A stretch of DNA of 64,000 nucleotides from Planctomycetota bacterium (GTDB taxonomy: Bacteria > Planctomycetota > SZUA-567 > H5-PLA8): positions 2,532,279-2,596,278 of the forward strand of contig JAOSKN010000002.1 of NCBI GenBank assembly GCA_027493525.1, read 5' to 3'. The translations under genes and the position numbers were made by a program. The notes under the pieces were generated by a model. The model was not told where the DNA came from. It did no database searches and saw nothing but the letters and a program-made list of their open reading frames with translations. Shown piece by piece: positions 27,605 to 62,662 of this stretch (the first letter of the stretch is position 1; each line of letters opens with the position of its first letter).

Positions 27605-27667
27605 CCGTCCTCAAGTCGCTAATCTCGGAACTCGGAACTCGGAACTCGGAACTCGGAACTACCATCT
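27605..27667. repeat. Heptad tract (CGGAACT type)
   Basis: Five perfect CGGAACT units (27626-27660) with degenerate units on the left (TCAAGTC, AATCTCG). The tract sits in the ftsI-murE gap and overlaps the last bases of ftsI by two. Confidence 0.8.
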
Positions 27668-49781: not shown

Positions 49782-50206
49782 GGTTTTCGGTTGCCGGTTG
49801 TTGGTTGCTGGTGGTCGGTTGCGGAGGAGTTCCTTATTTTGTGCCGGGTTCGCATTGAGGGCTGTCTGCATGGGCCGTTAAAAAGATGCACGGTGGTGCG
49901 TGGGTGGCGGTTGCCGGTTGTCGGTTTTCGGTTGCCGGTTGTTGAGGAGCTTCTCCTTCCCATTCTTGCCTTCCGATCTCGCGGTTGTCCACGAGAGCTT
50001 AAAAAAGATGCACCGTGGTGCGCGACTCCGGGATCCGGGGGCCGGTATCCGGACTCCGGGGCAGGAAGCAAAGGGGCTCCGTTGGAGCGCTGTTCCCTGG
50101 GTCCTGAGTCCGGTTCTCGGCACCCTTCTTCCAGTCTACGAGAGCTTAAAAAAGATGCACCGTGGTGCGTGGGCGCCGGTTGCCTGTTTTCGGTTCTCGG
50201 TTGCCG
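49782..50206. repeat. Cluster of heptad tracts (GGTTGCC and CCGGACT types)
   Basis: Five tracts lie at 49782-49823, 49903-49944, 50024-50072, 50092-50126 and 50172-50206. Their units vary around GGTTGCC, GGTTTTC, GGTTGTT, and around GACTCCG, GGATCCG, GTATCCG. Three are immediately preceded by the AAAAGATGCAC hairpin motif, so the tract and hairpin behave as a composite repeat. Confidence 0.75.
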
Positions 50207-50213
50207 CGGAACT

Positions 50214-50410
50214 TTATCCGTTGCTTGCCACCACCTTCAGGTGGTGGATCGCGGTTCCCTTTTAGGTCTCTTTCCGCCGGCTTAAGCCGGCGGAAAGAGG
50301 ATCGATGGGCTTCGCACCACCGGCTGAAGCCGGTGGCAAGCAACGGATTGATGGCGGGCGGGACGCCCGCGGTACGGACGGCGTGCCGGCGAGACGCCGG
50401 CGCTACGAAC
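50214..50410. repeat. REP-like palindrome cluster
   Basis: Inverted blocks ATCCGTTGCTTGCCACC (50217) and GGTGGCAAGCAACGGAT (ending 50348) flank a hairpin CCACCACC-ttca-GGTGGTGG, a perfect 32-bp palindrome centred at 50283/50284 (core CCGGCTTAAGCCGG), and a hairpin CCACCGGCT-GAAGCCGGTGG. GGCGGGCGGGACGCCCGC (50353-50370) and GCCGGCGAGACGCCGGC follow; both recur in altered form near 50995-51036. These resemble REP elements mobilised by RAYT transposases. Confidence 0.7.
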
Positions 50411-50588
50411 CGGACTTCCTGCGCCTGCTTCGGCGCGCTTCGACCGCGGGACGCGAAGGCCGACGCGGAGCCGCCAACTCCGGCGCCGGGCTGCGCTCCT
50501 CCGAGGAGGACGGGGAGCCCCGGCCTCGCGGTTCAAGTGCCCGCGCGCGCGGTCGGGAGTTTGCGCGCGAGCCCGCGAGGTTGAAGAG

Positions 50589-50617
50589 AGTATCCCCCGC
50601 GCGGGGGCGGTTGTCAA
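50589..50617 (-). promoter_or_regulatory. Possible sigma70-type promoter inside the repeat island
   Basis: Minus strand: TTGACA (50617-50612), a 17-bp spacer that is itself a CCCCCGCGCGGGGG palindrome, then GATACT (50594-50589). Sequence just upstream is unusually AT-rich. Transcription would run left into a GC-rich stretch with nested hairpins and no gene. rimO starts ~850 bp further on. Confidence 0.35.
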
Positions 50618-50715
50618 TGATAATGTTTATAATATGGATCAAAAACAGTGTCTAAGACATGGGGTATGGCTGGGGGCTGGGGGCTGGGGTTGGGGTTGGG
50701 GTTGGGATTGAGCTT

Positions 50716-50920
50716 GGGCGGCACACCACTGCGTGGTGTGGCACCCCGACTCACGACGCGGCGGGGGGAGATCGGGCGCGGGCAAATGACGACCGGGAGC
50801 CGGTGACCGGCAACCGGCGGGCGGCACACCACGGCGTGGTGTGGCACCCCGACTCACGACGCGGTGAAGGGGAGGTGTCGCGCGGGCGACCGGGAACCGA
50901 CAACCGATAACCGGCAGGCG
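50716..50920. repeat. Tandem duplication of hairpin plus heptad tract
   Basis: A 46-bp block with hairpin CACACCAC-ngc-GTGGTGTG occurs at 50716-50761 and 50819-50864 with one mismatch. Each copy is followed by heptads of the AACCGGC family (GACCGGG, AACCGAC, AACCGAT), so the ~103-bp unit is repeated as a whole. Confidence 0.75.
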
Positions 50921-51159: not shown

Positions 51160-52185
51160 ATGCCCGCGACTGTCGAGCTGCCCGCCGCCACGCCCGCCGA
51201 GATGGGCTTCAGCGCATCGATCCTGGACGAGCGGCTCGGCCCGCTGCTGGGCGAGCACAAGACCGGCGCGGCGGCGCTGCTGGTGAAGGGCAGGCTGGTC
51301 TGGGAGCGCTACTGGGACGGGCACGGGCCGGCGACGAAGTTCGACGTGTACTCGATGGGCAAGGCTTACGCGGCGGCGGCCATCGGGCTGCTCGCCGACG
51401 ACGGGCTGCTCTCGCTGGACGACCCCGCCTGCAAGTTCCTGCCGGAGTGGAAGCGCGAAGGGAACCGCGAGATCCTGATCAAGCACCTGCTGACGATGAC
51501 CTCGGGGCTGAAACTGGAGTACGAGAAGTTCACCTCCGAGCCGGACCCGACGGCGGCGACGCTGGCGTGGCCGGTGGAGCACCGGCCCGGCACGGTCTGG
51601 TCCTACGAGCAGGCGACCGCGCACGCGCTCTGCCCGATCGTCGTGCGCGTCTCGGGCAAGCAGCCGATCGAACTCTTGCGCGAGCGCGTCCTGGGGCCGA
51701 TCGGGGCGGGGGCGGTGGAGTGGCTGCGCGCGGCCAACGGGGACTGCAAGACCTGGCGCAGCACGCTGACGAGCGCGCGCGACGTCTGCAAGTTCGGCTG
51801 GCTGCTGCTGAAGGACGGCCGCTGGGGCGAACGGCAACTGCTGAGCGCCGAGTTCTGCCGGAAGATGCGCACCCGCGACCCGCTGTTCCGGAACGTCGTC
51901 TGCGATCCGCGGCAGCAGGAGCTCAAGGCGCGCAATTACGGCTACCTGCAGTTCCTCAACGTGGACGGCATGTGGCCCGACGCGGACCCGCGCGTTTTCG
52001 CGCCGACCGGCGCGTACGCCAACCTGTGCCTGATCGATCCGGTCCGCGAGACGGTGCTGGCGCGGCTCGTCACGCCGGCCGACGTGGCCGATCACAAGCC
52101 GTACTCGAACAAGCTGGATAGCCTCAGCGGCGGGACGAACGAGATCTGGAAGGTGCTGCGGGAAGCAGTAGTTGGTGAACAGTGA
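51160..52185 (+). CDS. Serine hydrolase of the class C beta-lactamase / D-aminopeptidase family
   Basis: 341 residues, RBS GAGGAA. Catalytic SxxK is YSMGKAYAAAAIG (~residues 66-69), and the second motif is YEQ (WSYEQATAHAL) in place of YxN. The C-terminal part with TGAYANLCLIDP matches the family HxG-strand region loosely (TGA here). No signal peptide, so it is cytoplasmic or exported another way. Such proteins hydrolyse esters, amides or D-peptides; beta-lactam resistance should not be assumed. Its last codons run into a heptad tract (GAACAGT). Confidence 0.85.
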   Translation: MPATVELPAATPAEMGFSASILDERLGPLLGEHKTGAAALLVKGRLVWERYWDGHGPATKFDVYSMGKAYAAAAIGLLADDGLLSLDDPACKFLPEWKREGNREILIKHLLTMTSGLKLEYEKFTSEPDPTAATLAWPVEHRPGTVWSYEQATAHALCPIVVRVSGKQPIELLRERVLGPIGAGAVEWLRAANGDCKTWRSTLTSARDVCKFGWLLLKDGRWGERQLLSAEFCRKMRTRDPLFRNVVCDPRQQELKARNYGYLQFLNVDGMWPDADPRVFAPTGAYANLCLIDPVRETVLARLVTPADVADHKPYSNKLDSLSGGTNEIWKVLREAVVGEQ

Positions 52186-52379
52186 ACGGTGAACAGTAAC
52201 GGCGGAGGTTAGGAAATAAGAGTCAAGGGTCGAAAAATCAAAAAGACAAAAGTCAAAGGTCCAAAACTAAGAGAATCGAAAACTAAGCGTCATTGGTCAT
52301 TGGTCATTGGTCATTGGTCATTGGTCATTGGTCATTGGTCATTGGTCATTGGTCATTGGTCTACGGTCTACGGTCAACG
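52176..52379. repeat. Longest heptad tract (GTCATTG x10 core)
   Basis: A ~200-bp tract keeps 7-bp phase through GAACAGT/GAACGGT, an A-rich middle (CAAAAGT, CAAAGGT), ten perfect GTCATTG units (52289-52358), then GTCTACG twice and GTCAACG. It begins at the last codons of the hydrolase gene and stops 13 bp before the 3' end of convergent pyrE. Confidence 0.9.
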
Positions 52380-52392
52380 CTGCGGCGAGGGG

Positions 52393-53013
52393 TTAGAGGC
52401 CGCGCAATTCCTTCCAATGGGTTTTGGGGCGCAGGGCGGGCGAACCCTTGGCGCAGAGGGGGCAGGCTTTCGGGTCCCAGGAAGTGATGCTCAATTCGAG
52501 GAGCGATTTGATCGCGAAGCCGCCGAGTTCGGTCTGCCCGCTGCGGTTGACGAGGCAGAGGACCATGGGCAGGAGCTTGAGGGTCTCGCCGCCGGCCGCG
52601 CGGAGGCCCGCGATGGTCTTGAGCGTGCTGCCGCCGGTGGAGATGACGTCTTCGACGACCAGCACGGTTTCGCGGGGCTTGAGTTCGAAGCGTTTGAGCG
52701 CCATGCCGTCGCCGTCTTTTTCGGTGAAGCCTGCGCGGGTTTCGAGCCGCTCGGCGACGGCGTGGGCGAAGGCGATCGCGCCGAAGGCCGAGCCGATGAC
52801 CCAGTCGGCGCGCTCGTTCGGGAGCTTGCCCGCGAGGCCGCGCTCGTCGCGGAGGATGCGATTGAGCAGGTTCGGGCGCTGCGTGACGAAGGTGCAGTTG
52901 ACGAAGCCGTCGGAGTGGAGCCCGGAGGTGAGCTCGGCGTGGGGGCGGACGGGATCCCCGCCGTGGAGCCAGACGGCGCCGGCGCGCTTGAATTCGTCGA
53001 GCCAGTCCACCAT
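52393..53013 (-). CDS. pyrE: Orotate phosphoribosyltransferase
   Basis: 206 residues from ATG 53013 with AAGGAGG upstream. The PRPP-binding loop VLVVEDVISTGGST is clear (~residues 115-128), with the type I PRTase start AGAVWLHGGDP, HAELTSGLHSDGF and DWVIGSAFGAIAFAH. The C-terminal ~35 residues have two cysteines (KACPLCAKG) not typical of PyrE and may bind metal. It makes OMP from orotate and PRPP. The rest of the pyr pathway is not in the window. Confidence 0.88.
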   Translation of the reverse strand: MVDWLDEFKRAGAVWLHGGDPVRPHAELTSGLHSDGFVNCTFVTQRPNLLNRILRDERGLAGKLPNERADWVIGSAFGAIAFAHAVAERLETRAGFTEKDGDGMALKRFELKPRETVLVVEDVISTGGSTLKTIAGLRAAGGETLKLLPMVLCLVNRSGQTELGGFAIKSLLELSITSWDPKACPLCAKGSPALRPKTHWKELRGL

Positions 53014-53077
53014 GGCGCACCTCCTTGAGGGTTCGTTTTTAGCGGCGCGCGCGGCGTGGCGCAAGGGGAGCGGGAAG

Positions 53078-53222
53078 CTGTGATCTGTAATCTGTAATCT
53101 GTAATCTGTGAACTGTGATCCATAAATGGTGGCGGAGGTGTCAAAGAAATTAGAGCAAGTGCCGCCGTTACAGATTACAGATTACAGATTACAGATTACA
53201 GAATACAGATCACAGTTCACTT
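53078..53222. repeat. Pair of heptad tracts in inverted orientation (CTGTAAT / ATTACAG)
   Basis: 53078-53119 is CTGTGAT, CTGTAAT x3, CTGTGAA, CTGTGAT. 53168-53222 is ATTACAG x4, AATACAG, ATCACAG, TTCACTT. The right side is the reverse complement of the left, so ~42-nt arms can pair around a ~48-nt loop. The pair fills the divergent gap between pyrE and an oxidoreductase gene. Confidence 0.88.
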
Positions 53223-53296: not shown

Positions 53297-54421
53297 GTGG
53301 CCAAGATCGGCATCGCGGTGATCGGGATCAGCGGGGTGGGGCGGACGCATCTGAATGCCGTGGCGAAGACGCCGGGCTTCGAGCTGCGCGGGGTTTGCGA
53401 CGTCAACGCGGCGGCGGGAGCGGCCTGCGCGAAAGAGCTTGACGTGAAGGCGTACACGGATCACCAGGCGATGTTCAAGGCCGATCCGAAGATCCGGGCG
53501 GTCTCGATCGCCACGCCGCACTGGTTCCACCCGCCCATCGCGGTGGACGCGGCGAAGGCCGGCGTGCACGTGCTGACGGAGAAGCCGATGGCGGTCACGG
53601 TGGCCGGCGCGGATCGGATGATCGCGGCGCACAAGAAGGCGAAGACGATCCTGGCCGTGGTGTACCAGCAGCGCTTCGTGCCGGCGAAGGCGAAGGCGCG
53701 GGACCTGGTGGCGAAGGGGAAGCTCGGCCGGATCAACCGCACGATGCTGATCGCCGGCGACTACCGGACCAACGCGTATTACGCCTCGGCCGGGTGGCGC
53801 GCGACGTGGCGCGGCGAAGGCGGCGGGGTGCTGCTCAACCAGGCCCCGCACGACCTGGACCTGTTCCAGTGGATCACGGGCCTGATGCCGGCGGAGGTCT
53901 TCGCCAAGACCGAGACGAAGATGCACCCGATCGAGGTCGAGGACTGCGCCAACGCGCTGCTGTGGTACAAGAACGGCGCGATCGGCTACCTGTATTCTTC
54001 GACCTGCGAGATTCCGCGGGAACAGCGCTTCGAGATCAGCGGGGACCTCGGCAAGCTGATCCTCGAGGGCGGGAGCCTCAAGTTCGCGCGGCTGAAACAG
54101 GACCTGCGCAAGTTCACGGCGACGACGAAGAAGGCCTGGAGCCAGCCGGACGTGGAATGGGAGGACGTGAAGCTCCCGGAGGCCGCAGGCGCGCAGGGGC
54201 ATGTGGCCGTCTACCACGACTTCCTGCGCGCGATCCGGACCGGCAAGCCGCCGGCGGTCACGGGCGAGGACGGGCGCAACAGCGTCGAGCTGGCCAACGC
54301 GATGATCCTCTCGAGTTTCACCGGGAAGCCGGTCAAGGTCCCGGTCAACCGCAAGGCGTACGAGGCGCTGATGCGGAAGCTGATCGCGCAGAGCAAGAAG
54401 AAGGCGGCGAAGAAGAAGTAG
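53297..54421 (+). CDS. Gfo/Idh/MocA-family oxidoreductase
   Basis: 374 residues from a GTG with a GGGAGG block upstream. Rossmann motif IGIAVIGISGVGRTHLNAV, TEKPMAVTVAGADRM signature, then GGGVLLNQAPHDLDLFQWI of the dimerisation domain. The C-terminus is a long Lys-rich tail (QSKKKAAKKK), perhaps for nucleic-acid or acidic-surface contact. Third member of the family in the window; substrate unknown. It starts a plus-strand run reaching to 58031. Confidence 0.87.
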   Translation: MAKIGIAVIGISGVGRTHLNAVAKTPGFELRGVCDVNAAAGAACAKELDVKAYTDHQAMFKADPKIRAVSIATPHWFHPPIAVDAAKAGVHVLTEKPMAVTVAGADRMIAAHKKAKTILAVVYQQRFVPAKAKARDLVAKGKLGRINRTMLIAGDYRTNAYYASAGWRATWRGEGGGVLLNQAPHDLDLFQWITGLMPAEVFAKTETKMHPIEVEDCANALLWYKNGAIGYLYSSTCEIPREQRFEISGDLGKLILEGGSLKFARLKQDLRKFTATTKKAWSQPDVEWEDVKLPEAAGAQGHVAVYHDFLRAIRTGKPPAVTGEDGRNSVELANAMILSSFTGKPVKVPVNRKAYEALMRKLIAQSKKKAAKKK

Positions 54422-62544: not shown

Positions 62545-62662
62545 GATCAGTAAACAGTAAACAGTAAACAGTGAACAGTGAACAGAGACAGCAAACTGCA
62601 TGCATTCGACGTGTTGGGTCTTCAACCGTTCGCCGATTACAGATTACAGATTACAGATTACT
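62545..62662. repeat. Two heptad tracts (AAACAGT and GATTACA types)
   Basis: 62545-62593 is GATCAGT, AAACAGT x3, GAACAGT, GAACAGA. 62635-62662 is GATTACA x3, GATTACT. The second tract contains the stop codon (62651-62653) of the oxidase gene, so the last residues of that protein are coded by the repeat. Confidence 0.85.

Follow-up and report, generated by a model that had tools for sequence, protein, structure and literature searches.

A heptad tract between two convergent genes

Within the window, i.e., the whole stretch of 64,000 nucleotides that was analysed, a serine hydrolase gene and a convergent pyrE gene enclose a tract of seven-base units, and a pair of arrays of the same kind lies on the other side of pyrE (Table 1). 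Three GAACRGT heptads are followed by an A-rich stretch, by ten exact copies of GTCATTG and finally by GTCTACG and GTCAACG units, a series that the original prediction had described and that was indeed found at these positions.

Table 1. Genes and heptad arrays at the locus (positions in the window)
Feature	Position	Strand	Remark
Serine hydrolase/beta-lactamase family gene	51160..52185	+	PF00144
GAACRGT heptads, three (GAACAGT, GAACGGT, GAACAGT)	52177..52197	+	Same phase as the GTCATTG block
A-rich stretch, weak period 7, stronger lag 15	52203..52288	+	Lag identity versus shuffles
GTCATTG, ten exact units	52289..52358	+	Read from the sequence
Derived units GTCTACG, GTCTACG, GTCAACG	52359..52379	+	GTCTACG twice at 52359-52372, GTCAACG at 52373-52379
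pyrE, orotate phosphoribosyltransferase, convergent neighbour	52393..53064	-	TIGR01367, 105 bits, under the curated cut-off
CTGTRAT array, inward from the start edge of pyrE	53078..53118	+	Same kind as the tract
ATTACAG array, inverted partner of CTGTRAT, inward from the Gfo/Idh start edge	53168..53220	+	
Gfo/Idh/MocA oxidoreductase gene, bordering the second array pair	53297..54421	+	

The phase was expected to be held over ~200 bp. This is true for the two ends of the tract, since the GAACRGT and GTCATTG blocks are offset by 112 bases (16 x 7), but not for the 86-bp middle, in which identity at lag 7 (48% versus 34% in shuffled sequence, p 0.004) is surpassed by identity at lag 15 (51%) and spacings of 7 and 8 bases are mixed. 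This A-rich middle is perhaps a decayed older array; the middle third does not demonstrably belong to the same array as both ends. Along the in-phase units, the similarity of neighbours that had been proposed as a check is evident, the summed Hamming distance between neighbours being 73 versus 137 after shuffling, with none of 5000 shuffles as low. The tract was also said to fill exactly the gap between the convergent genes, which is nearly the case: its left end lies inside the hydrolase stop codon (52183-52185), so that the last codons and the TGA of this gene come from the first heptad block, and its right end stops 13 bp short of pyrE.

The tract folds no better than shuffled sequences (z -0.75 and -0.20), a scan of it against Rfam returned no family, and no site resembling an intrinsic terminator, with its GC-rich hairpin and subsequent T run, was found there. 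Between the divergent pyrE and Gfo/Idh genes, the CTGTRAT and ATTACAG arms (53075-53222) are predicted to form one long hairpin (-81.5 kcal/mol, z -12.8). We also considered a conserved array at pyrE and rejected it, as relatives have different pyrE neighbours and lack a GTCATTG tract at this place; the different neighbours speak against a conserved role at the locus.

Heptad arrays in the genome and in other lineages

The assembly holding the window amounts to 7.46 Mb in six contigs, and our census of 2.04 Mb of it (27%) yielded 132 period-7 arrays. In 1.24 Mb of this genome, 75 imperfect arrays were found for period 7 and only 0-6 for each other period from 2 to 40, a specificity that excludes a chance repeat. 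Most of the 132 arrays (118) lie mainly outside predicted genes and 14 lie mainly inside, such as a CTCGGAA array of 5.3 units in a predicted coding region of the window (27624-27660). Convergent gaps are the richest, with 0.53 arrays per kb, followed by tandem (0.38) and divergent ones (0.18). Tandem gaps offering over 100 bp of free space number 52, and in 18 of them an array begins within 10 nt of the stop codon (2.5 expected). Among 1170 possible strand-symmetric word classes, three words, AACTCGG (21), AATCTGT (16) and AACAGTG (11), together make up 48 of the 132 arrays, and recurring words are mostly more AT-rich than the genome itself. When two arrays are adjacent, 13 of the 24 pairs are inverted and none is direct, one of the 13 being a marginal call between different words. 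With 14 cases among 115 arrays versus 1.8 expected, the motif AACGGC is enriched immediately inside arrays, and this for several words. Elsewhere in the window (62548-62661), CAGTAAA and GATTACA arrays lie close to each other near a minus-strand gene; a search of plasmids for a GATTACA-type peptide gave no match. Behind each of two further arrays (L183 near 9483 and L187 near 13909) stands a similar repeat, CCAAGTGTCAGCAACCCCTAGTCACTTG, which may represent a further dispersed element.

This abundance is not shared by close relatives. In the congener (G001), whose PyrE is 74% identical, 2 period-7 arrays were found in 400 kb and 3 in 800 kb. Four successive ACAGNNN units match 538 times in the genome under study and 0 times in the congener (1 for the reversed control), and two genomes from one other genus of the family differ in the same way (134 in G002 versus 1 in G006). 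The blooms are therefore specific to single species, and close relatives have hardly any arrays. A clean empty site illustrates such a gain: two genes overlapping by 4 bp in the congener are parted here by about five GTCAAAG units (C1:723236), and the insertion is pure array with nothing else gained. In the window, a ~1.4-kb gap (49787-50718) contains degenerate heptads and GC-rich repeats, the orthologous gap of the congener measuring 142 bp. Among nine genomes, no gene association emerged, as neither reverse transcriptase nor Ku nor Y1-transposase genes track the arrays. The Y1-transposase family, with 22 matches here, 10 of them of near-equal score, and 7 in the congener, probably includes a recently active IS200-like element. 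Further afield, of 119 genomes from the phylum, 4 contain three successive GTCATTG units, versus 1 for the reversed control, and such arrays are common in cyanobacteria. A vocabulary shared between phyla was rejected, as only 2 of 25 words of this genome recur in the cyanobacterial loci, which is about chance.

Array growth was approached through variation among units and isolates. In 12 of the 21 testable arrays of this genome, adjacent units resemble each other significantly more than after shuffling. On a conjugative-typed plasmid of Aeromonas salmonicida, a TGTCATC array abutting a stop codon counts 12, 12, 12, 12, 17, 19 and 21 units in seven isolates (L303-L309), the compared flanks being identical, and indels between Cyanothece strains mostly come in 7-nt steps (PMC4679880). 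Together, these three observations support expansion by whole units, from which we infer slippage as the mechanism. No proximal-to-distal age gradient that would betray a direction of growth was found along the arrays. As for the period itself, a 7-nt contact of the polymerase has been proposed by Mrazek, as reported in PMC4679880.

Polarity of the arrays relative to gene edges

The arrays also have a polarity, a property absent from the original prediction. On average, a word has its 5' end towards the closest gene edge and points into the gap, and the strand so oriented is the G-richer one. Polarity was scored per word, with one array per gap, by asking whether the word, read 5' to 3', points away from the gene edge closest to it. 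In the genome under study, inward:outward counts are 17:2 for AATCTGT, 11:2 for AACAGTG and 6:0 for AATGCGG; those of AACTCGG are 4:14, so that its complement is the inward form. Similarly, AATGACN gives 11:62 in cyanobacterial loci, which makes GTCATTN-type units inward; these loci were chosen for containing GTCATTG arrays, and arrays sharing a word may be related. The G-richer strand points inward in 56:15 arrays of this genome, the 44 arrays with equal G and C being left out of the count, and in 102:37 cyanobacterial arrays. Counted by word, the ratios become 23:4 (p 0.0003) and 31:15 (p 0.026), respectively, and the former would keep a p of 0.005 if all 14 left-out intragenic arrays were taken as violations. 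Where different words occupy the two ends of a gap, 9 of 11 gaps here have both words inward; the cyanobacterial loci have 40 such gaps, 20 with both words inward and 1 with both outward. Two annotated stretches of cyanobacterial plasmids contain four arrays, of which three (G>C) agree with the polarity and one (equal G and C) is neutral, and a small sample from other phyla gives 16:10, which is not significant.

Inward polarity is present at start edges as well as at stop edges, and sense transcription cannot therefore be its cause. Indeed, the orientation of words in tandem gaps shows no overall match with gene sense (p 0.58), because stop-side and start-side arrays are opposed, and an orientation driven by transcription was rejected. 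A base-composition bias at gene edges was discarded as well, since array-free gaps have no such strand skew. The gene calls behind these counts come from a simple codon-usage script and not from a standard annotation. An artefact of gene calling is nevertheless disfavoured: the stop-free words AACTCGG and AATGCGG are also polar, cyanobacterial GTCATTG is polar although the stop codon sits in its complement, and a start-side bias would go the opposite way. At the locus itself, the GTCATTG block is 13 bp from the pyrE stop versus 103 bp from the hydrolase stop and is a violation in the nearest-edge count. In our reading, the tract may be taken as one array anchored at the hydrolase stop, in which case GAACRGT and GTCATTG both have their G-richer strand inward.

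The polarity hypothesis was formed and tested on the same data, and we hold it unlikely that heptad arrays across bacterial phyla obey one law with the G-richer strand (in cyanobacteria also the G+T-rich one) inward from both sides. If true, such a law would suggest that the ends of intergenic DNA undergo a symmetric process not recognised so far, e.g., the addition of repeats to broken 3' ends, which would be a bacterial analogue of telomere healing. In the literature searched, an edge-polarity rule was found stated only for single repeat words. This rule is the part of the work most deserving follow-up, and it can be checked on any annotated genome.

Origin of the arrays and comparison with known systems

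The tract is of a known kind, an intergenic heptanucleotide repeat, and its expansion mechanism is ordinary. It probably represents an array seeded at a gene edge, expanded by slippage, edited by copied point mutations and multiplied in a lineage-specific bloom, with no conserved function here. Next to the stop codon of the hydrolase gene, a short seed would have been lengthened by slipped-strand or unequal duplication of whole units. Point mutations would then arise and be copied to neighbours, giving blocks of related units, while older blocks such as the A-rich middle may decay. Arrays would settle where selection permits, chiefly just past stop codons and between convergent genes, and the array at this locus probably has no function. 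The earlier view of the tract as a record of repeated copying with errors is well supported in the form of local whole-unit slippage; it leaves the shared words and the fixed edge polarity unaccounted for. Local slippage from random seeds is insufficient, since it predicts neither the recurring words nor their word-specific polarity, and slippage alone does not explain the polarity. New arrays would most likely start as copies of existing arrays, made in a fixed orientation, and such copying is the likely source of the recurring words.

A rival origin would be that arrays are scars of end extension, in which an intergenic break would be trimmed, heptads added to each 3' end, the ends rejoined and slippage left to act later. 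The extended strand would then point into the gap on both sides, a geometry like that of head-to-head telomere fusions. The equal polarity at stop and start edges, the lead of the G-richer strand in the word counts of both data sets, the array-free gaps devoid of skew and the frequent both-inward arrangement of different words are all consistent with this idea. Besides, bacterial reverse transcriptases making tandem-repeat DNA do exist. DRT10 shares with the arrays the bacterial synthesis of short tandem-repeat DNA but, according to the available part of its report (PMC12632851), it makes protein-primed cDNA on a ncRNA template with a variable repeat length (9 nt in one system), and chromosomal arrays are not described in that part. 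However, a Ku gene was found neither in this genome nor in eight relatives, reverse transcriptases do not follow the arrays over the nine genomes (one here, three in the congener), drifting units are ill-suited to a fixed RNA template, and the expected proximal-to-distal age gradient was not found. With respect to synteny breakpoints, arrays occupy 2 of 51 conserved versus 14 of 134 other adjacencies (p 0.24). On balance, we consider end extension doubtful.

A functional element of transcription or translation, such as a terminator, a Rho-loading site, an insulator or a 5'-leader regulator, appears improbable. In favour of such a role, incoming transcripts would bear the C-richer strand of the arrays, in the manner of Rho-loading sites, and the arrays hug stop codons and in one paired case (53075-53222) form a strong hairpin; in Beggiatoaceae, a role upstream of starts has been proposed for TAACTGA (PMC4679880). 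Yet the arrays are nearly absent in the congener, the tract folds like its shuffles and has no terminator-like site, and a word that is inward at both starts and stops would have opposite senses in 5' and 3' leaders.

A palindromic mobile element of MITE or REP type, with the heptad arrays as terminal inverted repeats, seems a shade less probable still. It would fit the excess of inverted over direct pairs, the hairpin beyond pyrE, the AACGGC motif just inside arrays and the 22 Y1-transposase matches, 10 of them with near-alike scores. However, an inverted partner within 150 bp accompanies 0 of 18 AACTCGG and 0 of 6 AATGCGG arrays although both words are polar, the spacers seen vary in length and look unrelated, and many gaps carry different words at their two ends. 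Moreover, the clean empty site gained an array only, and Y1 transposases are also present in heptad-poor relatives. The tract itself is not among the inverted array pairs, whereas other words do pair. Finally, tandem repeats are prone to mis-assembly and assembled unit counts can be wrong, but an assembly artefact or chance repeat is very improbable given the genome-wide specificity for period 7, the dependence of array placement on gene edges and the presence of comparable arrays in many genomes that were sequenced independently.

The edge-seeded, slippage-expanded repeat that we favour can be set against earlier reports of heptanucleotide repeats, which concern scattered bacteria and explain each word in its own way, as a translation signal or as a quadruplex. 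A polarity that many words share, in this genome as in cyanobacteria, and that agrees with two published data sets on single words would unite these cases in a single question of origin, namely how the arrays arise, why the unit measures seven bases and why one species has a bloom of them while its congener has none. The tract belongs with the long simple sequence repeats (LSSRs) of prokaryotes, having a 7-nt tandem unit far above chance placed between convergent genes. According to Mrazek 2007, as cited in PMC4679880 and PMC4692102, 7-nt repeats are the most abundant and a phylogenetically scattered class of LSSRs, for which expansion by polymerase slippage was proposed. The unit length is shared but the words differ, and the available text of these two papers describes no general gene-edge polarity. 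The STRR heptanucleotide repeats of heterocystous cyanobacteria are likewise tandem, 7-nt and intergenic; they were defined in cyanobacteria, and our words other than GTCATTG mostly differ from cyanobacterial ones.

TAACTGA repeats (MacGregor 2015, PMC4679880), known from Beggiatoaceae, cyanobacteria and Bacteroidetes, are also intergenic 7-nt arrays, but of another word than the GAACRGT, GTCATTG, GTCTACG and GTCAACG units of the tract, and they were interpreted as a translational signal. Their orientation is forward ahead of start codons and, at some places, reverse behind stop codons (TCAGTTA inward); strains differ by 7-nt indels, and relatives have shorter, repeat-free gaps. The sets of Beggiatoaceae, several Bacteroidetes and Cyanothece strains fit the inward rule, while the Microcystis sample was described as mixed. 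In Xanthomonas, the intergenic 7-nt arrays of GGGAATC (Rehm 2015, PMC4692102) are those of a single G-rich, quadruplex-forming word. The quadruplex heptamers GGGAATC and GGGGAYT have at least three G in a row per unit, whereas the GTCATTG array reaches no more than two. Prominent GGGAATC repeats are associated with different genes in two related species, and each genome holds 70-75 convergent inverted pairs. Almost always, the nearer ORF lies on the 5' side of the repeat (28 versus 160 nt), which is, for one word, the same inward polarity as described here.
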